A stretch of DNA of 29,005 bases, from positions 1 to 29,005 of IMG/VR virus record IMGVR_UViG_3300009126_000027; one strand, written 5' to 3'. The notes beneath the pieces are model-generated. The model saw nothing but the letters and a program-made list of their open reading frames with translations, searched no databases and was not told the DNA's origin. The first letter of the stretch is position 1. Every line of letters starts with the position of its first letter. Source of the DNA: a virus. The position numbers were made by a program, and so were the translations under genes. This document shows positions 5,236 to 29,005 of this stretch, piece after piece.

Positions 5236-6483
5236 ATGGCAGAAACCACCACCCAGATAGTAAAACAAGGCGTTTCCGAAGCCATTGAGCCATATCAAAG
5301 GCGACTTTTAGAAAGCGCTTGGCTTAGAGCTGGAGTTCCACTCTATGCTGGAATTACCCCAACTGGACTTCCACCACAAATACAAATAGCTGGCTTGAGC
5401 CCGATGCAACAGGAAATGCTTGCTTATGGCAGGTCTGGCATCGGTGGTTGGCGACCTTATATACAAGGGGCTGGAAGAGGATTATCTCAAGCACAAAGGA
5501 TGACTCAACCACAATTGGATATGATACAAGCTGGCAGAGGATTTTTAGGGCGTGGTGGCAGGCAATTTGGTAGAGCTGGTCAATATGTTGGACAAATGGG
5601 AGGCGCTTTAGGGCGATCCTTCGGAATGCCTGGGCGAACAGCAAGAAGTTATCTGGCTGAATCCACAGGTCGATTTGATCCAAGATCAGCACAAAGATAC
5701 ATGAATCCCTATACACAAAATGTTGTCAATCAAACTTTGGGAATGATGGAAGAACAAGGAGATGTGCAACGTAGAAGACTTAGGGATGAAGCGTTAAGGT
5801 CTGGTGCTTTTGGTGGCTCCAGAGCTGGTCTTGCCAGAGCAAAACTGGAAGGCGAGCTACAGGAAGCAAAAGCCAGAGCAATTGCACCGATGTACCAACA
5901 AGGCTACTCACAATCATTACAGGCTGCGATGCAAGAACAAGCCAGAAGAATGGGCGCTCTTTCAGGCGCAGCAGGACAGGAAGCACAGCTCGGAACCGCA
6001 GCGACTGGCACTTTGGGACAACAAGCCCAATTAATGGCTGGATTGGGCGGTGCTTACGGAGATTTAGCAACAAGATATGGCGGTTTGGCACAACAACAAA
6101 GAGGCGCTCAAGCTGGAACTGCATCTTTGGCACAACAATTGGCACAGCTCGGACAGTCCAGACAAGGCATGTTTGGTCAGGATATTGGTCTTATGAGCCA
6201 AATGGGAGGTCTTGAGCAACGACAAATGCAAGCTATATTGGATGCCCAGAGAGCCATGGCACAGGAAGCAGCAGGCGAGCCCTTTAAAAGACCACAATAT
6301 TTTGGTGATATTTTGGCGGGTGTCCCAAGCGGTCAAACCAGCATGGCAACAATGACCCAGCCGAGTGCAAATCCATTTGCCCAAGGATTGGGAGCAATCA
6401 TCAGTGCTGGTGCGGTTATGAACCCATGGGCACAAAACAAACAGAATCCTCTTGGCTTTGGCAGTGGCTACGCTTTTTCATAA
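5236..6483 (+). CDS. Gln/Gly/Ala-rich virion protein, ejection-type
   Basis: A 415-residue protein starting 1 nt after the preceding stop. Its most characteristic part is near residues 155-205: MNPYTQNVVNQTLGMMEEQ, followed by a helix and GAFGGSRAGLARA. I have seen this combination in structural proteins of many environmental phages. The rest is strongly enriched in Gln, Gly, Ala and Met and is predicted to be long helices. The N-terminus (about residues 1-75) has a short hydrophobic patch. No enzyme motif is visible. The context suggests an internal or injected virion protein working with its large neighbours. The composition also makes its antisense frames unusually open, and these were not called. 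Confidence 0.7.
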   Translation: MAETTTQIVKQGVSEAIEPYQRRLLESAWLRAGVPLYAGITPTGLPPQIQIAGLSPMQQEMLAYGRSGIGGWRPYIQGAGRGLSQAQRMTQPQLDMIQAGRGFLGRGGRQFGRAGQYVGQMGGALGRSFGMPGRTARSYLAESTGRFDPRSAQRYMNPYTQNVVNQTLGMMEEQGDVQRRRLRDEALRSGAFGGSRAGLARAKLEGELQEAKARAIAPMYQQGYSQSLQAAMQEQARRMGALSGAAGQEAQLGTAATGTLGQQAQLMAGLGGAYGDLATRYGGLAQQQRGAQAGTASLAQQLAQLGQSRQGMFGQDIGLMSQMGGLEQRQMQAILDAQRAMAQEAAGEPFKRPQYFGDILAGVPSGQTSMATMTQPSANPFAQGLGAIISAGAVMNPWAQNKQNPLGFGSGYAFS

Positions 6484-10565: not shown

Positions 10566-11086
10566 TCCCCTAGTTTTTTAAATTTTTTAGCAACCTTTCC
10601 TTGCTTGGTTAAAGTTGATTGATATTCCAAGGCTTTTCTTTTCATTGCACGGAAAGCCTCTTTTGTGGAGTTCCCTTCCTCATCTTGTGGGTATCTTTTG
10701 CTTTTGCCGCCCAAAGAAACGACTGAGGAGCCATATTTTTCAAAACTAAGCTCAAGTTTAGGTTCAGAGCTTTCAACTCCATTCACAGATATAAAGTATG
10801 AATCTGTTTCTGTAATTGCATCAATCTTTCTCCATCCAGCTGGTTCGTAATGTGCAGGGATGTTGATACCTTCATCCCAAATGTAATCGCCTTTTTTGAG
10901 TTCTGAATTTAAAACAAATAACGAGTTACTAAAAAACTCAGCAGTTGCTTTGCCTTTTTTAGTAAGAGTTACGCAACGACCACCACATTTAAAGCAGACA
11001 TATCCATCTCTTGGGTTGAAAGAATACTCCCCTGATCCACCACATCTGCTACAAGTTTCTTTTTCAAACTCTGTCATTGCCATCAT
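10562..11086 (-). CDS. Zinc-ribbon phage protein with DnaJ-like Cys repeats
   Basis: A 174-residue minus-strand protein. Residues about 11-33 hold two Cys pairs, CSRCGGSGEY and CFKCGGRC, like the CxxCxGxG units of the DnaJ zinc domain. A stretch KKGKATAEFFSNSL follows. The middle is mixed, and the C-terminus is Lys-rich. The start overlaps the stop of the upstream 286-aa gene (ATGA), so the two minus-strand genes form one operon read from the divergent promoter near 12000. I have seen this protein type in other phages without a known function. Zinc binding is well supported by the Cys spacing. What it binds (protein or nucleic acid) is unknown. It could act in host takeover, given its place outside the virion and replication modules. 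Confidence 0.75.
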   Translation of the reverse strand: MMAMTEFEKETCSRCGGSGEYSFNPRDGYVCFKCGGRCVTLTKKGKATAEFFSNSLFVLNSELKKGDYIWDEGINIPAHYEPAGWRKIDAITETDSYFISVNGVESSEPKLELSFEKYGSSVVSLGGKSKRYPQDEEGNSTKEAFRAMKRKALEYQSTLTKQGKVAKKFKKLGD

Positions 11087-11943
11087 CCACCCCCTAGTTT
11101 TTCTAAAAGTTTCTTTTTCGCAATCTTTTCGTCATTCAAGAAAAAGTAACATCGGTATGTGTCATCTTCGTTACGATAAGTATTGCTCCTCATAATTTTT
11201 AAAGTAATGTCGCCAATGCTTACACTTTTTGTGATGGATTTTTCATAACCAGCAAAGTATTTTTTGCGTCCATAGTTTCCAACAATTTCATGCTCATCAA
11301 AGCCTTCACTCACTTCAGTCTCCATGTCTTTCAAAATTTTTCCGCCATCAGCAACATTGATAAGTGGGTTTCCGTAAATTTTTTCGATCAATCCTTTTAA
11401 GAACTCGATGTGCTCTTTTGCGCCTTTAATATCAGCTTTTTTATTTTTGATCCAAAGTATGTTAGCTCTTTCTATAATCTCTTCTTCTGTGTATTTATCA
11501 TAGACCCACTCTTTGTAAGCGCTACCATAAACATATCTGTGGTTGTTTATGACATCTGCAATCTCATCTACTGGGATGTATTCAACTTTGTATCTATGTC
11601 TAAATCTTCCCACCATAGAAGCGCTGGGTGAACCAGATGGTATTGCTTCTATTTTCTTAGTCTCGCCTCCAATATTAAACCTACAGTTCACACCTTTAAC
11701 GCCAGTAAAGTTTGTAATCTCATCTCCAGTTTTGATGATGAACTCTTCAAGTTTGCCAATAAACTTTTCGGTAAATGTCTTGTCGAGCTCAAGTGGTGTG
11801 TGATCTGCTCCATCGCAGATGTTGTCAAAATAACCCCAGTAAGTATTGTAGCCATGTTTGGCAACCAGGGTTTCGTTGGTGCTAACTGCGTGAATCGCAC
11901 CACAAGCTGGGCAATGTCCTTTATGTGTATGAGTTTCTCTCAT
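11083..11943 (-). CDS. Zinc-finger-containing phage protein, unknown function
   Basis: A 286-residue protein, first gene of the minus-strand operon. The N-terminus has a probable zinc site, HCPACGAIHAV followed by KHGYNTYWGYFDNICDG with further Cys/His, a pattern I know from phage and plasmid proteins of unknown role. The remainder is soluble and charged, with a region VGRFRHRYKVEYIPVDEIAD near residues 110-130 and a helical segment with many Lys and Glu. No transmembrane segment is present. The promoter and the shared downstream 12-nt box lie just upstream (see the divergent promoter entries). It is transcribed away from the papain-like pair and toward the virion block. I cannot assign a function. 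Confidence 0.8.
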   Translation of the reverse strand: MRETHTHKGHCPACGAIHAVSTNETLVAKHGYNTYWGYFDNICDGADHTPLELDKTFTEKFIGKLEEFIIKTGDEITNFTGVKGVNCRFNIGGETKKIEAIPSGSPSASMVGRFRHRYKVEYIPVDEIADVINNHRYVYGSAYKEWVYDKYTEEEIIERANILWIKNKKADIKGAKEHIEFLKGLIEKIYGNPLINVADGGKILKDMETEVSEGFDEHEIVGNYGRKKYFAGYEKSITKSVSIGDITLKIMRSNTYRNEDDTYRCYFFLNDEKIAKKKLLEKLGGG

Positions 11944-11981
11944 TGCTGGCTACCGCCCCCTTTTTTCATTATTAAATTTAC

Positions 11982-12029
11982 TATCCACATTTAAAGTATA
12001 ACTAATTATGCACTAATAGCAACCCTTTT
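11982..12029 (-). repeat. 48-nt inverted promoter repeat, minus-strand copy
   Basis: The reverse complement of this stretch matches 12082-12129 without gaps. The first 10 nt (AAAAGGGTTG) and the last 12 nt (TAAATGTGGATA) are identical, and the -10 boxes differ by one base. The middle of the spacer is less alike. Conservation reaches beyond the -35 and -10 into the transcribed side, so it probably includes an operator or recognition element. Confidence 0.75.
11995..12022 (-). promoter_or_regulatory. Promoter of the minus-strand zinc-finger operon
   Basis: Read on the minus strand, TTGCTA (12022-12017) is a -35-like box and TATACT (12000-11995) is a -10 box, separated by 16 nt. It sits inside a 48-nt unit that is nearly identical to the plus-strand promoter on the other side of the intergenic region, with AAAAGGG just upstream of the -35 and TAAATGTGGATA just after the -10. 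The predicted transcript starts near 11988 and has a leader of about 45 nt. Sigma-70-like activity is inferred from the boxes. Confidence 0.6.
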
Positions 12030-12081
12030 TTAATGTTTTTTTAATATTATTTACACAAAAAATAAATGTAAAAAAGACTAT

Positions 12082-12129
12082 AAAAGGGTTGATATGAGTT
12101 GAAAACCTGCTAGACTGTAAATGTGGATA
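12082..12129 (+). repeat. 48-nt inverted promoter repeat, plus-strand copy
   Basis: This is the partner of the copy at 11982-12029, with the same length and internal spacing. The box TAAATGTGGATA at 12118-12129 runs into the start of the first gene here. In the other copy the same box is untranslated leader, so the conservation is not explained by coding. Confidence 0.75.
12089..12116 (+). promoter_or_regulatory. Promoter of the plus-strand accessory operon
   Basis: TTGATA (12089-12094) and TAGACT (12111-12116) have the same 16-nt spacing as the minus-strand promoter, and the flanks AAAAGGG and TAAATGTGGATA are shared. The predicted start of transcription is around 12123, at or only a few bases before the possible start codons (GTG 12123, ATG 12129). 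The mRNA of the first gene would therefore be leaderless or nearly so, in agreement with the lack of a Shine-Dalgarno sequence. Confidence 0.6.
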
Positions 12130-12782
12130 TGAAAAACAAGAAAACAAAAATTGGATACGTCCCAGAAAAGAGCCTGAAAAGTGGCTCAAAAACTTGGTGC
12201 GTTCCTTATGCTCTGGCTACTGTCATGGGAGTTGACTATGAAGAGATGTACGATTTTTGTGCGGAAACCCTGCACAACGCTTTCGGAAGAAAGAGAGCAA
12301 TAAAAGGACTTACCAAGGATGAGGCTGTCTTGATCGGGAAAGAGCTCGGTCTCGATATTAAATATGTGTCCACCATCTGGGGTCGTTTTACCTTGGGTCG
12401 CATTAAGGATTACATTGAAAGGGTCAAGGTCGATAAAGAAATAATTAACAGCCGAGTCGAGAATGGCGAGTACGAAGTTGTGAAAAACGAAAAAACAGAA
12501 GCTATTGGTTTCAAGACCGAAAATCATGGAAATGGATGGAGTGGCACAAGCACAAGATATATAGATCCAAAAATTGATCTCTTTGAAATACCAGAAGAAC
12601 ATTTCAATGCTCGTTTCTTCTTGGTCGAAGTCACCAACCATGAAATGGTTTATGATGCGGAGCTCGATTTGGTTATCGACAATTACAGCCTGGAATGGAC
12701 AAAGCCAAAAGAGCACCGATGGAAAAGAACAATAATGAAGGCTGTCGCTCCAGTCATTGACGATACAGGAGTTGCGTTATGA
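12123..12782 (+). CDS. Putative papain-like (C39-like) cysteine-protease-fold protein
   Basis: A 219-residue protein. A Cys near the N-terminus in KTWCVPYALATVMG (Cys26) is followed by a helix. A His (His173) in VEVTNHEMVYD and an Asp-Asn pair (186-187) in LVIDNY lie in beta-type segments near the C-terminus. Cys on a helix, then His, then Asp/Asn is the order in papain-like and C39-type folds, so an enzyme of this sort is possible, though the family assignment is by eye. GTG at 12123 is the longest start, and ATG at 12129 (MKNKK) is equally possible; neither has a Shine-Dalgarno sequence. The stop overlaps the next start (ATGA). Targets could be host proteins or the cell envelope, but nothing shows which. 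Confidence 0.7.
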   Translation: MDMKNKKTKIGYVPEKSLKSGSKTWCVPYALATVMGVDYEEMYDFCAETLHNAFGRKRAIKGLTKDEAVLIGKELGLDIKYVSTIWGRFTLGRIKDYIERVKVDKEIINSRVENGEYEVVKNEKTEAIGFKTENHGNGWSGTSTRYIDPKIDLFEIPEEHFNARFFLVEVTNHEMVYDAELDLVIDNYSLEWTKPKEHRWKRTIMKAVAPVIDDTGVAL

Positions 12783-13252
12783 AAACAGCAGAAGAACATA
12801 AGGCGACATTAAAAGAATATGGTCTGAAAGACACTGGCGATTGTTACGAAGCAGCAGCAAGACTGATGCTTGAGCTCAGTGCCAAGGGTGAAGACATGTC
12901 CAGTTACAAATTAGTTCATGGTGAAGTGACAGGACAAGGACCACTGGAAGGAACGAAGATCGGTCATGCTTGGGTTGAGAAAAAAGAAACATTTGATGTG
13001 TCAGAGATTGTTCCCAACGCTCATCCAATTGTTGTGGAAACAGTTTTGGATTTTTCCAATGGAGAAGAAAGCAATATTCCAAAAGGTCTATATTATGCTG
13101 TTGGCGAAATATACAGTGATGAATACGATGAAGAAAATCCATTCATCAGAAAATCCAACACCCACTTCTACACTTTAGAAGAAATGAAAAAGAAGATTAA
13201 AGAGTTCGGACACTGGGGCTGTTGGGACTTGGTAACAAAGACAGGATTATGA
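12779..13252 (+). CDS. Second small protein with Cys-His-Asp arrangement, transglutaminase/papain-like candidate
   Basis: A 157-residue protein, translationally coupled to its neighbours through ATGA at both ends. Cys22 in GDCYEAAARLM sits at the start of a helix. His63 lies in IGHAWVE, and Asp91 in VLDFS. This Cys/His/Asp order and the HAWV motif are typical of transglutaminase-like and papain-like folds; I have seen similar phage proteins described only as hypothetical. The C-terminus is charged and ends in a Trp-rich GHWGCWDL. Two different Cys-His proteins in one operon suggest a joint function such as processing or inactivating a host factor. This is inference. Enzyme activity needs the Cys and His to be confirmed as active-site residues. 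Confidence 0.7.
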   Translation: MKTAEEHKATLKEYGLKDTGDCYEAAARLMLELSAKGEDMSSYKLVHGEVTGQGPLEGTKIGHAWVEKKETFDVSEIVPNAHPIVVETVLDFSNGEESNIPKGLYYAVGEIYSDEYDEENPFIRKSNTHFYTLEEMKKKIKEFGHWGCWDLVTKTGL

Positions 13253-18237: not shown

Positions 18238-19178
18238 TGGTGCAATACCAATGGAAAAAAACAACCTTGCAGGAAGAGTTTGATAGTTTTATGAGAGATG
18301 CTCTGCGTGGCAAGTTGCCCAAACAACACAAGAAAAAAGAAACAAGAAAAAAAAATTTAACGATTGACTCAATATTAACAAATTTGGTTTCTGATCTTGT
18401 CCCCGAAAATGATGTAGCTCTTCTGCTATCTGGTGGGGTTGATAGCATGAGCGTCGGGTTTTCAGCACATAGGCTTGGCAAAAAGATCACTGCCTATACA
18501 TTCAAAACAGACAAACACGATTCCTATGACTATAACAAAGCCAAAGAAGTTGCAGACAAAATGAACTGGGATTTTGTTGGAGTTGTTATTCCTACAGAAA
18601 ACTTAAAGGAAGACTTTTTTAAATTGTTGAATGAACATAATTGTATAAAAAAAACACACTTTGAATGTCTCTATCCATTTTTATATGTATATCCTAGAAT
18701 AAAAGAACAATATGTGTTGTCTGGTTGGGCTGCTGATGGATATTATGGTTTGTCAAAAAAAGCGATGATAAATTATAGACACTCTTTGGAGCTCTTGAAC
18801 CAATTTAGAGATGATTATTTTAAGCCTGAGAATAGAGCTGGTTATTGTTGGCATGAAAGATTAGCCAAAAAACACAATAAAGTTTTTTGTTCTCCATATC
18901 TTTCTAACGAAATAAAAGAATTTTTTTACAGCAAAGACTGGCAAACAATCAACAAGCCACAACAAAAGATACATGTAAGAACTTCCTTTGGTAAGTTTAA
19001 ATTATTTGGAGATATTAAAAACCACTTAAACTTACAAATTGATTCACAGATCAATAAAGTATTCGAGGCTTTAATTAGTGATGAAGAAATAAATTTCAAG
19101 AACAGAACCAGAATTATGGATATATGCAAAGACTGGATTAAGAGAAAGAATGACGATCAATTACTTATCAATATGTAG
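18234..19178 (+). CDS. Asparagine-synthetase-like PP-loop ATP-pyrophosphatase
   Basis: A 314-residue protein. The PP-loop SGGVDS (residues 66-71) in ALLLSGGVDSMSVGF and the later LSGWAADGYYGLSKKA (162-177) correspond to the two signature regions of asparagine synthetase B (SGGxDS and LSGEGADE-type). Such enzymes adenylate a carboxylate and then form an amide or related bond. The N-terminal glutaminase domain of AsnB (Cys1-type) is absent, so the nitrogen source must be ammonia, another amine or a separate partner. No QueC-type Cys zinc site and no reductase motif are seen. The gene overlaps the methyltransferase by 29 nt and so is probably co-expressed with it. In this context the substrate may be a carboxymethyl group on DNA or tRNA (inference). 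A free-amino-acid role cannot be excluded. Confidence 0.82.
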   Translation: MMVQYQWKKTTLQEEFDSFMRDALRGKLPKQHKKKETRKKNLTIDSILTNLVSDLVPENDVALLLSGGVDSMSVGFSAHRLGKKITAYTFKTDKHDSYDYNKAKEVADKMNWDFVGVVIPTENLKEDFFKLLNEHNCIKKTHFECLYPFLYVYPRIKEQYVLSGWAADGYYGLSKKAMINYRHSLELLNQFRDDYFKPENRAGYCWHERLAKKHNKVFCSPYLSNEIKEFFYSKDWQTINKPQQKIHVRTSFGKFKLFGDIKNHLNLQIDSQINKVFEALISDEEINFKNRTRIMDICKDWIKRKNDDQLLINM

Positions 19179-20358
19179 CGGGATAGAGTCCGCTTCCGTA
19201 GCTTGGCATCCGCTTGGATGGAATTGCGTTGGCGTTTCTGAGATTCACCCCTTTCGTTCTGCTGTGTTAAATTATCATTATCCAGAGATTAAAAACTTTG
19301 GAGACTTTACGGAGATTACAAAAGATGACTTCAGAAAAGAAACCTACCCAGACCTCCTTGTGGGAGGAACTCCCTGTGCCAGCTTCTCCATCGCTGGACT
19401 TAGAAAAGGATTTGAAGACGATAGAGGAAACCTCGCCTTGGAGTTTATACTCTTGGCTAATAGGCTTAAAACTTCGTGGGTTCTCTGGGAAAATGTCCCC
19501 GGCTTATTGTCCTCAGACAAAGGAAGGGATTTTGGAAACTTCCTCGGAGCGTTGGCAGAATGCGGGTATGGGTTCGCCTACAGGATTCTTAACACTGAAT
19601 TTGTCAGAACACAACGATTTCCAAGAGCACTCCCACAAAGACGAAGGCGTGTCTTCGTTGTCGGATGTCTTGGAAGCTGGAGAAGTCCCGCGAAGGTATT
19701 ATTTGACGGAGAAACAATGTCGGGGAATTATCCGCCGAGCCGAAAAAAACGAGAGAACCCTGCCAGAAAACCTACTCATCGCACTGGAAGAAGCGATCAA
19801 TACTTTCAAGACGCAACAGACAAAACAACCATAAGGCAAACAAGAAGCGACGGATATGTCGAAGATGACGTAGCTGGCACTATCGCTGCCAGAGATTACA
19901 AGTCTTCAACAGATTTGGTTGTGATGAGAGATAGCCAGACTGGTTCCAATGGGAAACCATGGAACGACGATGGTGTGTCTTGGTCGTTGACTGCTCACGA
20001 CAGATACACAGTGATTGAAACAAGCACCCCAGATAAGAGTGCTCGTATTTACAAAGATGAAGTTTCCCCTACCTTGAACGCCATGACTGGCGGAAACAGA
20101 CAGCCCATCATTCTTAAAGAACGTACCACAGCTCCGAGAAACAGCATCATCAGACGACTCACGCCAATTGAGTGTGAAAGGTTGCAAGGCTTTCCAGACA
20201 ACTACACCCAAATACCCTACAGAGGCAAACCAAAGGAACAGGCTCCTATATCACAAAGATATGAAGCCTGTGGTCGAGCCATGTCAATCAACGTCATGGA
20301 ATGGTTGGGAACAAGAATACAAATGGTACATGAAAGAAACAATGACAAAGCAATTTAA
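19150..20358 (+). CDS. C5-cytosine DNA methyltransferase with altered cofactor-pocket residues
   Basis: A 402-residue C5-cytosine methyltransferase. Motif I is SICSGIESASVAW (7-19). Motif IV is GGTPCASFS with catalytic Cys76. Motif VI is ENV (Glu114). Motif VIII is QRRRR (163-167). The target-recognition region (about 180-330) includes DDVAGTIAARDY and SPTLNAMTGG. The late motifs are RRLTPIECERLQGFP and GRAMSINV. Two positions are unusual. The residue after the catalytic Cys is Ala77 (Gln in most of the family). The motif X Asn (GNS/GNA; Asn304 of M.HhaI) is Arg376. Both line the cofactor pocket. The ATG at 19150 lies inside the PP-loop gene and follows AAGAGAAAG. The CmoA-like gene overlaps its 3' end. 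It may transfer a carboxymethyl rather than a methyl group (inference). Confidence 0.93.
   Translation: MTINYLSICSGIESASVAWHPLGWNCVGVSEIHPFRSAVLNYHYPEIKNFGDFTEITKDDFRKETYPDLLVGGTPCASFSIAGLRKGFEDDRGNLALEFILLANRLKTSWVLWENVPGLLSSDKGRDFGNFLGALAECGYGFAYRILNTEFVRTQRFPRALPQRRRRVFVVGCLGSWRSPAKVLFDGETMSGNYPPSRKKRENPARKPTHRTGRSDQYFQDATDKTTIRQTRSDGYVEDDVAGTIAARDYKSSTDLVVMRDSQTGSNGKPWNDDGVSWSLTAHDRYTVIETSTPDKSARIYKDEVSPTLNAMTGGNRQPIILKERTTAPRNSIIRRLTPIECERLQGFPDNYTQIPYRGKPKEQAPISQRYEACGRAMSINVMEWLGTRIQMVHERNNDKAI
19325..19834 (+). CDS. Overprinted protein encoded in the +1 frame inside the methyltransferase gene
   Basis: A 169-residue reading frame lies wholly inside the methyltransferase gene. Its ATG at 19325 has GGAG at 19311-19314, and a TTG at 19298 would be an earlier in-frame start. 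The C-terminal part, VSSLSDVLEAGEVPRRYYLT followed by KQCRGIIRRAEKNERTLP, is close to a segment I recall from many phage proteins of unknown function (SLSDILE, YFLS, CxGILRRAEKRG, LP). The middle, GFSGKMSPAYCPQTKEGI and AGMGSPTGFLTLN, fits the same group. So this frame is probably a real, conserved protein, not a chance opening. It has no membrane segment. I do not know its function; it may control or accompany the methyltransferase. Confidence 0.7.
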   Translation: MTSEKKPTQTSLWEELPVPASPSLDLEKDLKTIEETSPWSLYSWLIGLKLRGFSGKMSPAYCPQTKEGILETSSERWQNAGMGSPTGFLTLNLSEHNDFQEHSHKDEGVSSLSDVLEAGEVPRRYYLTEKQCRGIIRRAEKNERTLPENLLIALEEAINTFKTQQTKQP

Positions 20359-20989
20359 CTTTTCAGAGATAGATGATTTTGAAAGACACATAGATCTTTC
20401 AGTCCCTAACTTCTCCACTCTGGATAACATTTTCGTAAATGTAGCCAAGGAATACGCACAGGAAGAATCATCTGTGGTTGATTTGGGGTGTTCGACTGGT
20501 AGATTCCTGTCAAAGATACCAAAGATAAGTGGCTGTCACTACATCGGCATTGATTCCATTGACATGAAAGGCAGGAGAAAGGATTTTGGTTTCGTAAAAG
20601 GTGATTGTGAAACAGAATTAAAAAACATCGACAACATATCGGTGGTATCGTCGATGTTTTTTTTACAGTTTTTAGGTGCTCGAAAGAGAGCAAGGATATT
20701 GAGTGAGATTGCAAAAAGGATTAATTCTGGAGCGATCTTCCTGATTGCAGAAAAGGTTTATCTTAACGATAGCAGGTTACAGCATTTAATCCACAAGCTA
20801 CACATACAGGAAAAGAGAAAAAATTTTTCTGATGAAGAAATACTGGAAAAGGAATTGCAATTGTCCATATCCATGTTTTGCAAAAAAGAAGATGAGCTGA
20901 ATGAAGAATTAGGAAAATTGGGAAGCATGACGAAAGTTTGGCAAAGCTATAATTTTTTAGGCTATGTAATAAATAAAAAAAATGATTGA
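20330..20989 (+). CDS. CmoA-like SAM-dependent enzyme (putative carboxy-SAM synthase)
   Basis: A 219-residue class I methyltransferase-fold protein. Numbered from ATG 20330, landmarks match E. coli CmoA (247 residues): LSVPNFSTL (23-31) to RSVPGYSNI, VVDLGCSTG (49-57) to VYDLGCSLG, FFLQFLGARKR (110-120) to FTLQFLEPSER, AEKVYL (140-145) to SEKFSF, and VWQSYNFLGYVI near the end to LWFQCFNFGSLV. CmoA makes carboxy-S-adenosylmethionine from SAM and prephenate for tRNA wobble-uridine modification. By eye, the Arg I recall as CmoA R199, which holds the new carboxylate, aligns with Glu here, so the product is not certain. The gene overlaps the methyltransferase by 29 nt. ATG 20342 is an alternative start. 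An earlier ATG at 20168 would overlap too far. Confidence 0.82.
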   Translation: MKETMTKQFNFSEIDDFERHIDLSVPNFSTLDNIFVNVAKEYAQEESSVVDLGCSTGRFLSKIPKISGCHYIGIDSIDMKGRRKDFGFVKGDCETELKNIDNISVVSSMFFLQFLGARKRARILSEIAKRINSGAIFLIAEKVYLNDSRLQHLIHKLHIQEKRKNFSDEEILEKELQLSISMFCKKEDELNEELGKLGSMTKVWQSYNFLGYVINKKND

Positions 20990-21484: not shown

Positions 21485-22220
21485 TTTGAATCATTCTTAT
21501 GCATCTGGTGATGTCTCGGACATCATCAACAAAAAAATAGACTTGGCACTCACTAAGAAAAACAGAGAAACACCGCCAAGGAATTATCTTGGAGCATCCA
21601 TCTTGGGCAACCCATGTTCAAGACAGATCCAGTGGAATTACGAGCAGGTGGAAAAAGATGAAGGCAAAGGATTTTCTGGGCAGACACTGCGGATATTTGA
21701 AGCGGGACATTCATTTGAAGACATGGCGATTGGCTGGATCAGGGAAGCTGGCATTGATCTCAAGACAGAGAAGGAAGATGGATCCCAGTTTGGTTTCTCG
21801 GTAGCGCAAGGAAAGATCGCTGGACACATCGATGGAGTTATCTTGGATGGTCCGAGCAAGTGGCAGTACCCAATGCTCTGGGAATGCAAAAGCGCGAACC
21901 AGAAAAAGTTTAATGAGTTCAGGAACAATGGGTTGGAGAGTACCAACCAGACTTATGCAGCACAGGTTGCGATCTATCAAGCCTACATGAAGCTGGAAAA
22001 CCCAGCGTTATTTACTGTGGTAAACAAAAATACTTGCGAGCTCTACCATGAAGTAATACCATTTAATAATGAACTCGCTCAAAGAATTAGTGACAAAGCC
22101 GCCAATATCTTATCAGCAGTTCAGTCAAGCACCCTAATGCCCAGAGTTGCAAACAACAGCGACTATTATTTTTGTCGCTGGTGTGATTTTTACGAAAGAT
22201 GTTGGAATGAAGAAGGATAA
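21474..22220 (+). CDS. Cas4/RecB-like PD-(D/E)XK nuclease with predicted Fe-S cluster
   Basis: A 248-residue nuclease. A Cys near the N-terminus (Cys48 in GNPCSRQIQW) pairs with three Cys near the C-terminus (234, 237 and 243 in CRWCDFYERCW), the layout of Cas4/AddB-type 4Fe-4S nucleases. The catalytic set GHIDGVI and LWECKSA gives the Asp and Glu-x-Lys of PD-(D/E)XK enzymes. A conserved Gln helix (TYAAQVAIYQAYM) completes the RecB-nuclease pattern. It probably degrades or resects DNA ends in recombination and replication, working near the Sak4-like and primase-helicase proteins. It is not near any CRISPR array. The 3' end overlaps the primase gene by 14 nt. Confidence 0.88.
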   Translation: MAIDLNHSYASGDVSDIINKKIDLALTKKNRETPPRNYLGASILGNPCSRQIQWNYEQVEKDEGKGFSGQTLRIFEAGHSFEDMAIGWIREAGIDLKTEKEDGSQFGFSVAQGKIAGHIDGVILDGPSKWQYPMLWECKSANQKKFNEFRNNGLESTNQTYAAQVAIYQAYMKLENPALFTVVNKNTCELYHEVIPFNNELAQRISDKAANILSAVQSSTLMPRVANNSDYYFCRWCDFYERCWNEEG

Positions 22221-24354
22221 AAAAACTAAATTATACGACCTAAATGATGCCAGACCACAAGGACACTATGCGTCTGGGCAACTAACCAGCGAAGACTATA
22301 TCCGAAGACTAAAGGATGACATGAATGCACAGGCATTCGGGGTGTTGTCCTATCTGTTTCCCAATGGCAAAAAGGAAGGCTCTGAATTTGTCGTTGGTGG
22401 GTTGCATGGAAAGGCTGGCAGGTCACTGAAAATATCAATGGCTGAAGGCAAGATCGGGGTTGGTGAAGACTTTGCTACTGGCGAAAAGTTTGGCGACCTG
22501 ATAGATGTCTGGCAGAAACAAAGAAACATGGACTTTAGGGATACCTGTGAAGAAGTAGAACGCTTTTTGGGTCGTCCATTCAGGGAGAAATCTGCTACTA
22601 AAAACCCCAACAGCAATAAAAGCAGGTCTCTCCCGCCACCCGCAGCCCAGTATCAGTACACTGATGAAAAAGGCATTGTGCTCGGTGTTGTTTATCGTTA
22701 CGAGCTTCCAGATGGCACGAAAGAGTTTAGACCTTGGGATGCCAAGGCTGGAAAGAACAGAATGCCGATACCCAGACCCTTATATAACTTGGTTGCTGTC
22801 AGTGGCTCGGAAAACGTGGTGTTGGTTGAAGGCGAGAAATGTGTGGATGCATTGCAGGCAAGAGGCATTGTCGCAACCACCGCAATGGGTGGCTCCAAAG
22901 CTCCGCTTGAGAAAACGGACTGGTCGCCACTGTTGGACAAATCGATTATCGTTTGGAGTGATAATGATGCCCCTGGTGTCATGTATGGGTCAAAAGCAGG
23001 TGCTTATCTCAGGGAGATTGGTGTTGAGAATGTGCAGGTAATAAAAATACCAAGCGGAAAGCCCGAAGGCTGGGATGCTGCTGATGCGGTAACGGAAGGA
23101 ATAGAGCTGGAGATATTAAGCCAGACAGAGCCCGCACAGTTGCCGAAAGGTGAGCTATCTTTCAGGATACAGGACTGGCAGGCTAATATTTACCAAGGCA
23201 AAGCTCCCGAACAGGAATTTTTAGTGGAAGGGACGTTTCCCTTGTCCACATCAATCATCCTTGCTGGTATGGGAGACTCTGGCAAGGGAATGGTTACGCT
23301 GGATCTGGCGGTAAAGGTCGCTACAGGATCCAACAACAAAGTTGAAGAAGCTCTAGGCGGGGCTGTTCTATCTAATGGCAACGCTGTAATTTTTACAGCC
23401 GAAGACGATAAGGACGAAATTCATCGTCGATTGGAGAAGATCGACAAGGAAAACCGCAGAAAAAACTCCAAGCATGGGTTATTCATTATCCCCTTACCCA
23501 ATGCAGGCGGTCCATTTGCGATAGTTCAAGATAGTAGGGATGGTCCCGCTGCTACTCCAGAATGGCATGTAATAAGAAAACAACTAAACTCAATCCACAA
23601 TGTAAAGCTGGTGGTTTTTGATCCACTGGCATCTTTTGTCCATGCCGACATCAATGCCGATCCAGCAGCAGGTGCATTTGCCACTGGCATGTTGGCATCG
23701 CTGGCTACCGAGCTCAATGCTACTGTCATTGTCTGCCATCACATGGCAAAAGGCAGTGCAAGGGATGGCATCAAGACCCCAGAGCAAGCCCGACATGCAA
23801 TAAGAGGAACCACTGCGATTGTGGATGGAATGCGTGGCGCTTTTGCCTTTTGGCAACTGGATGAAACTGATGGCAGGAAGATATGCAAGAAGCTGAAGAT
23901 GAATTATGAACGTAACATTGCTTACGCTGGGGCTGTGGTCAAGTCGAATGGTCCAACAGATCGTGGGGTCAGGATCTTTATCAGGAACAAGGAAACAGGG
24001 CTGTTGGAATACAGGAACAGAGATCTTATCGAAGTTACCACACCGACTGCCATGTTGCTTGAGAAGATGACCCACACCATAGCAGCGAGAGCTGTGGAAG
24101 GCTATCCATACACATCAACTGGCATGAATGGCGTGTGGGAACTCAGGCACACCTTCAGCACCGAGTTTCACACGTTGCCCAAGAACTCCATAAGGGATTT
24201 GCTACAGCAATTGCTTAATGATGGCAAGGTCAGGAAGTGTGTCTCCAAAGGATCACAGTCTGCTAAGTGGCTTGATGTACCAGGCGGTCCTTTTGACCGA
24301 GGCGATGGTCAACACATGCATGGCAGTGCATCTGATCGTGATCGCTACTCTTAG
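22207..24354 (+). CDS. Bifunctional TOPRIM primase / RecA-fold helicase
   Basis: A protein of 715 residues when started at ATG 22207, which I prefer to a longer frame starting at 22147 because the extra residues fall within the nuclease's Cys motif. The first 150 residues are of phage-primase N-terminal type (GVLSYLFPNG, GVGEDFATGEKFGDLIDVW). The TOPRIM domain follows near residue 206 (VLVEGEKCVDAL, then WSDNDAPG). The helicase part has Walker A GMGDSGKGMV near 356 and Walker B KLVVFDPLASF near 468, with TAEDDKDEIHRRLE between. The C-terminus has a winged-helix-like region. It should unwind the fork and lay primers for phage DNA replication. No DNA polymerase gene lies in the window. Confidence 0.9.
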   Translation: MKKDKKTKLYDLNDARPQGHYASGQLTSEDYIRRLKDDMNAQAFGVLSYLFPNGKKEGSEFVVGGLHGKAGRSLKISMAEGKIGVGEDFATGEKFGDLIDVWQKQRNMDFRDTCEEVERFLGRPFREKSATKNPNSNKSRSLPPPAAQYQYTDEKGIVLGVVYRYELPDGTKEFRPWDAKAGKNRMPIPRPLYNLVAVSGSENVVLVEGEKCVDALQARGIVATTAMGGSKAPLEKTDWSPLLDKSIIVWSDNDAPGVMYGSKAGAYLREIGVENVQVIKIPSGKPEGWDAADAVTEGIELEILSQTEPAQLPKGELSFRIQDWQANIYQGKAPEQEFLVEGTFPLSTSIILAGMGDSGKGMVTLDLAVKVATGSNNKVEEALGGAVLSNGNAVIFTAEDDKDEIHRRLEKIDKENRRKNSKHGLFIIPLPNAGGPFAIVQDSRDGPAATPEWHVIRKQLNSIHNVKLVVFDPLASFVHADINADPAAGAFATGMLASLATELNATVIVCHHMAKGSARDGIKTPEQARHAIRGTTAIVDGMRGAFAFWQLDETDGRKICKKLKMNYERNIAYAGAVVKSNGPTDRGVRIFIRNKETGLLEYRNRDLIEVTTPTAMLLEKMTHTIAARAVEGYPYTSTGMNGVWELRHTFSTEFHTLPKNSIRDLLQQLLNDGKVRKCVSKGSQSAKWLDVPGGPFDRGDGQHMHGSASDRDRYS

Positions 24355-26207: not shown

Positions 26208-27962
26208 ATGCCAGGTAGATACACAGACCCAGTTAAAGGCTGGGGCATTATCGCTGATCCATTTCGTGGAATCGCACAGACACCAACACCAAGACAATTG
26301 CAAATGCAAGCTGCCCTTAGAGGCGGTGCTCCTAGAGGTGGTGGTCGTGGTTGGCAGGCTGGTGGTATTGTGAGTGCAGGACAAAATTTACCAAACGCAA
26401 TGATGCCACCCTCTTTTGACCAGCCAAAAGAAGAACCACCAAGACCAGGTATGATTCCAGTATATAATCCTGATGGAAACAGCATTATAGGATGGAGATC
26501 TCCTCCACCTCCACCATCCCAGTTTGACCCTTATGGGTTTGGCACAGAAGATCCTTATGGTGTCGGTAGCAAACATGCATATCGAGCAAACCAGACTGGG
26601 GGCATGATGATGCGGGACCCAAGAGAGGAAAGATATTACGATCCTGCTAGTCCAGATCCGCTTTGGATGGATCCACAGGCAATGAAGGATTACGCTTGGT
26701 ATCTGCAAGATCCAAACTTACAAAACAAAGACATAACAGGCTATCAGGGAATGTTGCTGAATCCAGTAACCCCAGGATTGCCTGGTCCAACCGACATGTG
26801 GCACAGCCTTGCAGACTATGATCCTACCCAATGGGATCCCGAAAACCCCACTTCCTTTCCATATAGTAGTTATGGTAGTTATATGGGACCAAAAATGCAT
26901 GATCTGTATCAACAAACACAGGGCGACATCATGGATCCGCAACAAAGACTGACGCATTTCCAGAGCTTGATGAACAGAAATCCGTTTACACCCAGTCCTG
27001 TTGCTCCTGTTGCGCAAGATGAAATTGCTCAATACATCGCTTCTGTAAGCGGTGATCCAGAATATCGTAAAGAATATGACACGAATCAAGATGGTAAGAT
27101 AACAATGCAAGACGTTGCTTATGCTGGTCAGTTTGCATCTGGTCTTAGAGATCCAAAAACCTTGCAATCAATAGAACAACCACCCACTCCAGTAGGAACA
27201 ACTGGCGGTGGTACAACAACTACACCAGTTGCTCCGACTACTCCTGTAACGCCAACGACACCAGCAACAACAACACCGACGACTCCTACTACACTTGGCA
27301 ATATTTTTGGTACATACACCCCTTCACAGACACCAACACGACAACAAACAGTGCCATGGGGATTTGGCAGACCACCCAGAGGCGGTGGCTTTCCGATGAT
27401 GCCGACAAACCAAGGCGGTATATTTAGCAACATTTTTGGCAACAGATGGGGTCAAAGACCACGAAGACAACCATTTTTTGAAAGACCTATGAGACCATGG
27501 CAACGACCATGGCAACAGCAACAATTTATGTTTGATCCTTATCGATCCATGGGAATGCCACCGAGATTCCCGATGTATAACCCGATGGATTACTCTAATG
27601 CGTTTAGGCAACGCCAGTCAATGATGCCGATGTATAACCCTTATAACTATGGTCAGCCCAGCTTCTTTGGAGGCGGAATGGGTGGTATCGGAGGCTTTGG
27701 TGGTATGGGCTCTAATATTTATGGCGGTGGCATGGGTGGTATCAGTAACATCTATGGCAGTGGCGGTCAATATGGTGGTATGGGCGGTTATGGTGGCGGA
27801 ATGGGTCAGTATGGCAGTCCTTTTGGTAGCTCTGGCAATATGGGCTTTGGCATGGGCGGTCAGTTTGGCGGTCAACAACAACAAATGGGCAATCCGTTTG
27901 GACAATCAATGTTTGGTAACAACCGAAGAGGACAGGGCAACCAAAGCATGTTTGCTTTTTAA
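26208..27962 (+). CDS. Pro/Thr- and Gly/Met-rich virion-like protein with an EF-hand
   Basis: A 584-residue protein. Residues 1-270 are Pro/Gly-rich with aromatic and Asp content. Near residue 290 is DTNQDGKITMQDVAY, a good EF-hand or dockerin-type calcium loop. A Thr/Pro-rich linker follows (about 325-365, TTPVAPTTPVTPTTPATTTP). The last 200 residues are Gly/Met/Tyr/Gln-rich (GGGMGGIGGFGGMGSN) with no obvious globular domain. This composition fits a virion appendage or surface protein, perhaps calcium-stabilised. It lies just before the small conserved gene and the packaging region, and starts 3 nt after a perfect inverted repeat. No enzyme motif is visible, and the family is not known to me. 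Confidence 0.7.
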   Translation: MPGRYTDPVKGWGIIADPFRGIAQTPTPRQLQMQAALRGGAPRGGGRGWQAGGIVSAGQNLPNAMMPPSFDQPKEEPPRPGMIPVYNPDGNSIIGWRSPPPPPSQFDPYGFGTEDPYGVGSKHAYRANQTGGMMMRDPREERYYDPASPDPLWMDPQAMKDYAWYLQDPNLQNKDITGYQGMLLNPVTPGLPGPTDMWHSLADYDPTQWDPENPTSFPYSSYGSYMGPKMHDLYQQTQGDIMDPQQRLTHFQSLMNRNPFTPSPVAPVAQDEIAQYIASVSGDPEYRKEYDTNQDGKITMQDVAYAGQFASGLRDPKTLQSIEQPPTPVGTTGGGTTTTPVAPTTPVTPTTPATTTPTTPTTLGNIFGTYTPSQTPTRQQTVPWGFGRPPRGGGFPMMPTNQGGIFSNIFGNRWGQRPRRQPFFERPMRPWQRPWQQQQFMFDPYRSMGMPPRFPMYNPMDYSNAFRQRQSMMPMYNPYNYGQPSFFGGGMGGIGGFGGMGSNIYGGGMGGISNIYGSGGQYGGMGGYGGGMGQYGSPFGSSGNMGFGMGGQFGGQQQQMGNPFGQSMFGNNRRGQGNQSMFAF

Positions 27963-27969
27963 GCGAAAC

Positions 27970-28254
27970 ATGGACAACGAAACTATAGAATCAAACTTTG
28001 ACATCAGCCTCATGGCTGAAGGTTTCCACGAAGCCATTATCGGCAAGGCAATGATAGCAAACGAGCCTGTTGTGGCTTACGATTACGACATTTGTGTGGA
28101 GATACTGCACAGCAGTGGGCTCAGTTACACTGAAGCAAAGATGATCTTGGGGATGGTATCAAGAAAAGCAGACCCAACTGCTGGTGCTCCCATCTTTATC
28201 AAAAGGGCAATACTCTCACCAGATTTGAGCAACAGTTATGGCAACTTACATTAG
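27970..28254 (+). CDS. Small conserved phage protein of unknown function
   Basis: A 94-residue protein. The start at ATG 27970 is preferred; the frame upstream is hydrophobic nonsense that overlaps the Gly-rich gene. The core HEAIIGKAMIANEPVVAYDY, followed by DICVEILHSSGLSYTEAKMI and a TPIFV-like end (here GAPIFIKRAILSP), is a pattern I have seen in small proteins of many phages, always without a function. It lies 8 nt after the EF-hand gene and before the repeat-rich region. No ribosome binding site stands out (AAGCGAAAC). Confidence 0.7.
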   Translation: MDNETIESNFDISLMAEGFHEAIIGKAMIANEPVVAYDYDICVEILHSSGLSYTEAKMILGMVSRKADPTAGAPIFIKRAILSPDLSNSYGNLH

Positions 28255-28260
28255 TTTTAT

Positions 28261-28313
28261 GGGGTGTGTTTCGGAGTTTTTTCATACACTTTTTTCTCCT
28301 TTCTGCACACCCC
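28261..28313. repeat. Inverted repeat with T-rich internal loop
   Basis: GGGGTGTG (28261-28268) pairs with CACACCCC (28306-28313). Inside, GGAG and CTCC can pair across two runs of T. The T runs are in the loop rather than after the stem, so this is not a normal intrinsic terminator. It lies just after the small conserved gene. Confidence 0.6.
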
Positions 28314-28322
28314 AAACCCAAA

Positions 28323-28362
28323 CTATTTCCAGATTTCCAAGCAAAGATTTCTATGGAAATAG
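28323..28362 (+). repeat. 40-bp direct repeat, first copy
   Basis: This stretch matches 28442-28481 at 37 of 40 positions; the first 22 bases (from CTATTTCCAGATTTCCAAG) are identical. The second half is an imperfect palindrome around ATGG. The copies are 119 bp apart, start to start. It is unlike a CRISPR repeat because of copy number and palindromic structure. Confidence 0.8.
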
Positions 28363-28372
28363 TTTAGTAAAA

Positions 28373-28409
28373 CATTTCCATTGCCAAGCACCCTCTGGCA
28401 ATGGAAATG
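28373..28409. repeat. Perfect 14-bp hairpin in the pre-terminase region
   Basis: CATTTCCATTGCCA (28373-28386) and TGGCAATGGAAATG (28396-28409) form a perfect stem with a 9-nt loop. The stem also holds the TTTCCA word and its complement. No T run follows. It may be a protein-binding cruciform or an RNA hairpin. Confidence 0.8.
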
Positions 28410-28441
28410 GAAAGTGTATATAAAACAACAACTTAACATTT

Positions 28442-28481
28442 CTATTTCCAGATTTCCAAGCAACTATTTCCATGGAAATAG
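28442..28481 (+). repeat. 40-bp direct repeat, second copy, with a perfect 18-nt palindrome
   Basis: The second copy ends in CTATTTCCATGGAAATAG (28464-28481), which is a perfect palindrome; the first copy has three differences from it. The same motif in two places, one perfect, suggests a binding site for a dimeric protein. Further partial copies of the first half lie at 28520-28536 and 28616-28624. Confidence 0.8.
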
Positions 28482-28540
28482 AAATGGATTTTCCTTTAAT
28501 ATCAACAACTTAGGAAACCATTTCCAGATTTCCAAGGTTT

Positions 28541-28581
28541 CCCTTACTATAGTAAGGGGGTATCTTAAAATACCCCCTTAC
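28541..28581. repeat. Overlapping palindrome and inverted repeat
   Basis: CCCTTACTATAGTAAGGG (28541-28558) is a perfect 18-nt palindrome. It overlaps an inverted repeat, GTAAGGGGGTAT (28552-28563) and ATACCCCCTTAC (28570-28581), with a 6-nt loop. The GTAAGG arm can therefore pair with either of two partners, giving two alternative structures, as in a switch. Confidence 0.75.
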
Positions 28582-28636
28582 ATATATAGGATTTTTACAG
28601 CGATGTTTCCAATAAATTTCCAAGAGGTGTGTCGGC

Positions 28637-29005
28637 ATGGATAAAAAAAGCGACGATGAAAAGTTGGTGAATGAAAAGTTGATGAATGAAAAGTTGGCGA
28701 AGGGTGACGACGAGAAGTTGGTGATGACCGACGAAGATAAAGAAGTTGATCGGGTTGATTATCTGAAGAGCAAAGATCCGATTGCGGTGGTAGTGAAAAA
28801 GAAAAAGGGTAAGAGTGGAAACCCGAACTGGCATAAAGGCATGGAAGCGACGAACAAGGGCAAGAAGGCAAAGAAGAAACTGACAGCGATGCAGGAAAGG
28901 TTTTGTCAGATCTTGGTGCATGAAGATGTAACCAAGACCGAGGCAGCGAGAAGAGCTGGGTACGCTGGTGGCAGGAACGCTGCTGTTAAGCTCACTGATG
29001 CCAGG
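28637..29005 (+). CDS. Terminase small subunit, N-terminal part (cut by the window end)
   Basis: 123 residues are present and the frame is still open at the window edge. The part from about residue 82 (LTAMQERFCQILVHEDVTKT, then EAARRAGYAGGRN) is the helix-turn-helix-like N-terminal domain of phage small terminases, where LTxxQExF and EAARRAGY are conserved. The small terminase recognises the packaging site and recruits the large, ATP-driven nuclease-motor. The first 80 residues are an unusual Lys/Glu/Asp-rich extension with a short repeat. The start is supported by AAGAGG at 28622-28627, 9 nt before the ATG. The large subunit should follow outside the window. Confidence 0.85.
   Translation, partial: MDKKSDDEKLVNEKLMNEKLAKGDDEKLVMTDEDKEVDRVDYLKSKDPIAVVVKKKKGKSGNPNWHKGMEATNKGKKAKKKLTAMQERFCQILVHEDVTKTEAARRAGYAGGRNAAVKLTDAR
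28655..28699 (+). repeat. Three tandem 15-bp units at the start of the terminase gene
   Basis: Three adjacent 15-bp units (28655-28669, 28670-28684 and 28685-28699) encode DEKLV, NEKLM and NEKLA in a row; they differ by only a few bases, mainly G/A changes. A later DEKLV suggests a fourth, separated copy. The repeats lengthen the charged N-terminal tail and probably come from slippage. Confidence 0.75.

Follow-up and report, generated by a model that had tools for sequence, protein, structure and literature searches.

The stretch at positions 28320-28622 of the window, by which we mean the whole 29,005-bp linear virus fragment that was analysed (IMG/VR record IMGVR_UViG_3300009126_000027), is very probably the replication origin of this phage, and its repeated words would be read by the phage's own Toprim-RepA primase-helicase through a C-terminal winged helix. 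A sequence-only reading of the same stretch had left two possibilities, a packaging site bound by the adjacent small terminase or an origin with iterons for a replication initiator. It was the latter that gained strong support, from the co-variation of the word with the C-terminus of the primase, from arrays that accompany this gene in other elements and from the presence of IHF sites. The evidence comes from sequence and consists of the array itself, an architecture that stays the same when the words differ, the correspondence between word and C-terminus, the linkage of array and primase, the enrichment of IHF sites and the topology of a hairpin. From these we infer that the initiator binds the words, that the helicase is loaded and primes at the hairpin, and that the two alternative folds of the hairpin may have a role.

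The array is located in the non-coding stretch that follows a 94-aa gene (27970-28254) and precedes the gene for the small terminase (from 28637) and, as had been stated earlier, coding does not explain it, since the stretch contains no plausible gene. The words ATTTCCA and TGGAAAT occur 12 times exactly at 28325-28622 (of 21 exact copies in the window), in agreement with the dozen or so previously reported in both orientations. In 1000 dinucleotide shuffles of the array stretch the count of the most frequent 7-mer averaged 3.1 and never exceeded 10, as compared to the 12 observed for ATTTCCA. The claim that no other part of the window is as dense also held, as any 364-bp stretch elsewhere contained at most five copies of one word and those were A-runs. 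The remaining elements listed in the sequence-only reading were all recovered: the 40-bp direct repeat (28323-28362 and 28442-28481, 37/40 = 93%), the perfect 14-bp hairpin (arms 28373-28386/28396-28409), the 18-nt palindrome (28464-28481) and the two overlapping palindromes (28541-28558 and 28552-28581). A further perfect 14-bp inverted pair (28437-28450/28473-28486) was absent from that list, and hairpin B (Table 1) also has one-mismatch words at 28380, 28396 and 28408. Single-strand folding of pieces of the array gave z-scores of -3.6 to -6.2.

Searches of the stretch against cultured phages (blastn) and against Rfam gave no match. The exact 17-mer ATTTCCAGATTTCCAAG gave four scattered single matches in IMG/VR and one in locus L007, which was set aside as belonging to an unrelated phage without such a primase. 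This phage (L007 9219-9535; near 5901, 28201 and 51151 in the 55.8-kb record G001) has TTGGAAA/TTTCCAA words in both orientations at three places, a 127-bp repeat at both record ends and no homologue of the window's primase; its words are possibly an independent origin or regulatory array. Two further observations concern the surroundings of the window array. A G/C-rich inverted repeat, TGGGGTGTG...CACACCCCA (28259-28315, fold z -3.6), bounds it at the left and no counterpart was noticed in relatives, and a 584-aa protein encoded upstream (26208-27962), with a long tail rich in Gly, Gln and Met, had no match in PHROG.

Table 1. Positions in the window of the proposed origin, its proposed initiator and the adjoining terminase gene.
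Feature	Position	Strand	Details
Primase-helicase, proposed initiator	22207..24354	+	phrog_239 E 6e-38; AAA_25 E 1.8e-34; RSF1010 RepA 1g8y E 2.7e-16
C-terminal winged-helix domain, proposed ATTTCCA reader	24037..24291	+	Model, fold matches, co-variation
Iteron cluster A	28320..28365	.	ATTTCCA 28325, 28333 (+), TGGAAAT 28354 (-); perfect 12-bp inverted arms 28320-28331/28354-28365
Iteron hairpin B	28373..28414	.	Words 28374 (+), 28402 (-); fold z -6.2
IHF-like site AAACAACAACTTA	28423..28435	+	One mismatch to WATCAANNNNTTR; aligns with relatives' first conserved IHF site
Iteron cluster C	28437..28486	.	Words 28444, 28452, 28466 (+), 28473 (-); holds 18-nt palindrome and second copy of 40-bp repeat
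IHF consensus site TATCAACAACTTA	28500..28512	+	Exact match
Iteron cluster D	28518..28536	+	ATTTCCAGATTTCCAAG, two words immediately 5' of three-arm hairpin
Either/or three-arm hairpin	28541..28581	.	Middle arm GTAAGGG pairs left (CCCTTACTA/TAGTAAGGG, 28541-28558) or right (GTAAGGGGGTAT/ATACCCCCTTAC, 28552-28581)
Two outlying words	28605..28622	+	GTTTCCA (one mismatch), ATTTCCA (28616); interval between hairpin and small terminase
Small terminase subunit, 5' part (window ends inside)	28637..29005	+	phrog_51 E 4e-8; adjoins array

The window's primase-helicase was used to find a first set of 52 viral loci (five at 95-100% identity, the others mostly around 38%), and a scan with a relative's small terminase provided a second set of 80 additional loci. 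In the five nearly identical loci the contigs stop short of the array or are otherwise without it; no close relative was found to have the array of the window, so that ATTTCCA is paired with this particular C-terminus in a single sequence. Among the approximately 83 loci with enough upstream DNA, about 75 have a word array in the 500 bp or so upstream of the terminase. The array is located about 550 bp further upstream in six more loci (L100, L101, L102, L107, L108 and L110), and in L101, the only one of the six that was read, an extra small ORF (MNFPKPLQDRRGQYKVYLH...) separates it from the terminase. The words of the relatives are different from ATTTCCA and include TACGTCA or TAACGTA, TACTCCA, TAGTCCA, ACTTCA, TTACGGTAA with CTGTAA, and ATTGTCACG. 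What is kept is the layout, in which word pairs, an inverted word and an AT-rich spacer are repeated and followed by one or two words right before a C-run/G-run hairpin, and the window spacer AAAACAACAACTTAAC was found letter for letter in L037, the word of which is TACTCCA. Among loci L016-L022, with primases around 38% identical to that of the window, no recognisable array was found behind the primase in L016, L017, L019, L021 and L022. The contigs of L017 and L018 reach the terminase and have no array before it, and a one-orientation GGGACCC cluster at the skew minimum of L018 (G006) is without matching architecture. These cases without an array count against the origin reading.

Some relatives showed other features. 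In L023, GTGAAACATT words in both orientations lie 450 bp behind the primase (from 6376) and possibly represent a further word class of the same origin type. Many marine relatives have a CCGANAAATTGTTCGG near-palindrome just before the terminase, near a promoter-like TTGAC...TAATAT site (e.g. ACCGACAAATTGTTCGGGT in L028); this near-palindrome, which was not seen in the window, looks like an operator. The primase-helicase frame of L056/L066 (G005 18370-20440) is split into two pieces in different frames, as a result of either a sequencing error or a broken gene, and the array and terminase there are intact.

The primase-helicase was for most analyses taken as 22210-24351, one codon inside its start. 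It contains a RepA-type hexameric helicase core, as judged from a profile match to 1g8y (positions 352-577) and from 1nlf and 1olo by fold, preceded by a weak Toprim-like part that scores below the Pfam cut-off. By fold search with the full-length model, which is of low quality (pLDDT 64), the whole protein has the T7 gp4/Twinkle arrangement. The last 130 residues were therefore modelled separately and then gave a pLDDT of 83 (core above 90), with three helices followed by two strands. Its best fold matches were mostly winged helices (MecI, BlaI and MarR) with moderate Z scores of 7-7.9 in the VIA-align list, and Foldseek alone gave no match with E below 0.05; the winged-helix reading is thus based on the order of secondary structures and the VIA-align list. 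The domain lies outside the region that aligns with RSF1010 RepA, and its proposed recognition helix differs between word classes, being ESTIKKAVT for TACGTCA, STIIESVNKL for TACTCCA, STIRDDVEKL for ATTGTCACG and NSIRDLLQQL for ATTTCCA in the window. From the model and the sequence comparisons we propose that this winged helix reads the word.

Word class was compared with distance in 60-residue windows along the primase. The Mantel r was 0.26-0.43 for windows within the first 540 alignment columns and rose to 0.69-0.90 for those that start at column 511 or later, and the fraction of nearest neighbours that share the word was 0.36-0.72 for the earlier windows and 0.92-1.0 for the last part. Given that the loci are related, the p-values of this co-variation are not to be taken literally, and the argument is the contrast between parts of one protein. 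When the five word classes were placed on trees, 4 changes (the minimum possible) were required with the C-terminal part, 6 with the N-terminal part and 8 with the small terminase (TerS). In L028 the N-terminal part is close to L046/L047, which have the word TACTCCA, and both the C-terminus and the word are of TACGTCA type. This mosaic indicates that recombination has split the N- and C-terminal parts and that the word went with the C-terminus. The array is accordingly linked to, and exchanged together with, the putative DNA-binding domain of the proposed initiator, as in iteron-type origins. The word also correlated with other reading frames. For a gene of 376 aa, amidoligase-like by its sequence, r was 0.71, but its two versions are distant from each other and it is present in no more than 8 close loci, so that the correlation was regarded as coincidence, and for an ORF antisense to the primase (r 0.82) and a small gene just behind the primase (0.59) a correlation is expected from overlap and linkage.

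The spacers of the arrays fit the IHF consensus WATCAANNNNTTR. In 24.6 kb of arrays from 82 loci there were 127 exact consensus sites, whereas shuffles predict 3.6 and the remainder of the loci 2.4, and the majority of the relatives' arrays have exactly two. Sites for an accessory architectural protein, in this case IHF, thus accompany the words as they do in iteron-type origins; against this, several prophage arrays of CCGGGAA/CGTTCCC type were without the consensus. The three-arm hairpin of the window has a score of 21 that was reached by 0/100 shuffles. With a strict search such a triple was found in 18 of the 23 origins tested, in most of which 0/100 shuffles attained the score; for L045 the search returned word repeats in place of a triple, and the cut made in L126 and L115 was misplaced. 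The arms of L142 (ACCCATATC/GATATGGGT with ATGGGTAGGG/CCCTACCCAT) are unlike those of the window and, because the sequences of the origins differ completely from each other, the pairing is kept while the letters change. The hairpin may serve in strand opening, helicase loading or priming.

In other elements the array is found at the primase gene. RHph_Y3_1, a cultured Rhizobium phage with a circular genome, has a CGTTCCCA/TGGGAACG array and a CCCTTCTAAAGAAGGG hairpin immediately behind its primase homologue (10867-12933) and 2.4 kb before the small terminase gene (15618). A scan of bacterial genomes identified full-length primase homologues in Nitrospirota, Magnetococcales, a Desulfobacteraceae bacterium, Burkholderiales, Thauera and Alcanivorax, and in about 17 of 23 prophage-like loci the strongest array of the locus was within about 210 bp of the primase 3' end. 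The same module was recognised by eye behind a primase homologue on the Agarilytica plasmid pSU2, where it was below the threshold of the scan. Wolbachia phage WO has TTCCTA words at the corresponding place behind its primase, a case that is only suggestive because their number is not clearly above that in shuffles; a paper on phage WO does not mention iterons. GC skew, a check proposed in the sequence-only reading, was calculated for four relatives of 55-60 kb, and the detrended minimum fell 2.7-3.8 kb from the array, that is, near it and not at it. This agrees with an origin there and does not prove it, and the support is weak because the four relatives are related to each other.

The proximity of the array to the terminase in the window and most marine relatives would also be expected if it were a pac or cosB site, with the small terminase binding the words, IHF acting as in lambda cosB and the cut made near the hairpin. 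In lambda, cosB has repeats with IHF adjoining the small terminase gene and the array here resembles it in that respect, but there the terminase is the reader, and here TerS does not follow the word. Its mean distance was 0.068 within word classes and 0.065 between them (Mantel r 0.11, p 0.11), and near-identical TerS proteins, helix-turn-helix included, are found in L037 (ACTCCA), L028 (ACGTCA), L039 (ACTTCA) and L045 (TTGTCA). Since a terminase that reads the word should change with it, TerS is not its likely reader. The six arrays displaced upstream, one of them with a small ORF in between, and the arrays located at the primase in RHph_Y3_1 and many prophages likewise speak against packaging. 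In L005 the terminase core is 98.6% identical at the DNA level from window position 28794 on and the upstream sequence is completely different, with zero ATTTCCA words in the 10.2-kb contig, though this contig may be a chimera. A packaging function, the first of the two earlier proposals, is therefore highly unlikely. The start of the TerS gene (28652-28724) contains four imperfect 19-nt repeats that encode NEKL-type peptide repeats.

Transcriptional control, in which a regulator (possibly the same winged-helix domain) would bind the words and switch divergent early genes and the terminase operon, was judged very improbable. The location of marine relatives' arrays between divergent genes, with the promoter-like site between hairpin and TerS, and the resemblance of the C-terminal domain to the MecI and MarR repressors are compatible with it, but the window stretch gave no sigma-70-like site, prophage arrays are located behind the primase 3' end and not ahead of a promoter of its operon, and the word reader tracks a replication protein. 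Attachment and partition sites (attP among them) also have iterons plus IHF, and the array could be another nucleoprotein site, such as an attachment site, a partition site or a recombination hotspot, to which the primase is recruited only incidentally. This seems extremely unlikely given that neither an integrase nor ParA/ParB was recognised beside the window array and that in RHph_Y3_1 the annotated att site (4414) and the integrase (8695) are away from the array.

If the stretch is an origin, the clustered short repeats seen in it would be its iterons, with binding of the initiator suggested by the co-variation. The C-terminal winged helix of the hexameric primase-helicase would dock on the ATTTCCA iterons, IHF would bend the DNA at the two sites separating the iteron clusters, and the complex would load the fused helicase at the adjoining hairpin, where the helicase-primase could prime. 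The helicase core is homologous to RSF1010 RepA (1g8y, E 2.7e-16), and the oriV of RSF1010 has iterons with nearby hairpins. RSF1010 differs in that helicase, primase and iteron-binding functions are in separate proteins (RepA, RepB' and RepC), whereas here they are apparently fused in one polypeptide. The alpha protein of phage P4 unites primase, helicase and an iteron-binding C-terminus and recognises short words in both orientations (ori1 and crr), but its helicase and primase are of other superfamilies and the P4 sites are two and separate.

According to PMC7581432 (citing Ubeda 2007), the C-terminal domain of the SaPI Rep initiator helicase reads short iterons and the origin is directly downstream of the helicase gene. 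The prophage arrays described here, likewise directly behind the helicase gene, resemble SaPI Rep/ori and SCCmec Cch2 in this respect, as do those of RHph_Y3_1 and pSU2, whereas the array of the window adjoins the terminase, about 4 kb from the helicase gene. The SaPI Rep, Cch and Cch2 helicases are of other families (DUF927, Primase_Cterm/D5) and the primases of SaPIbov1 and SaPI5 are of archaeo-eukaryotic type; the core here is neither DUF927 nor D5 but AAA_25, a relative of RSF1010 RepA with a Toprim-like domain. IHF sites and an either/or hairpin were not found in the descriptions consulted of SaPI-type systems. For PLE, a Vibrio satellite of phage ICP1, swaps of RepA and ori show cognate specificity (PMC8263062), and the co-variation observed here parallels what these swaps showed. 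The PLE initiator is of RepA_N type and not a primase-helicase, and it has three approximately 30-bp semi-palindromic iterons. The origin most likely works like SaPI Rep/ori or PLE RepA/ori with a different initiator and, by helicase type, is a member of neither family.

No description of such an origin was found in the freely available literature that was searched. The chances appear evenly balanced that these loci represent a widespread, undescribed replicon family in which one Toprim-RepA-winged-helix protein combines the functions of helicase, primase and reader for an origin of iterons, IHF sites and a three-arm hairpin, in which specificity changes by joint exchange of C-terminal cassette and array, and in which the middle arm may be a structural switch or a priming landing site on either strand. 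For a large group of uncultivated phages, and for prophages of Pseudomonadota, Nitrospirota and possibly Wolbachia, the findings provide a sequence signature of the replication origin; no described origin was found for them. The PLE/ICP1 satellite system already shows that initiator/origin pairs of this sort can be targeted when elements are in conflict (PMC8263062). Given that a winged-helix reader would here be paired with at least six natural DNA words, both the rules of protein-DNA specificity and the origin incompatibility of co-infecting phages become directly testable.
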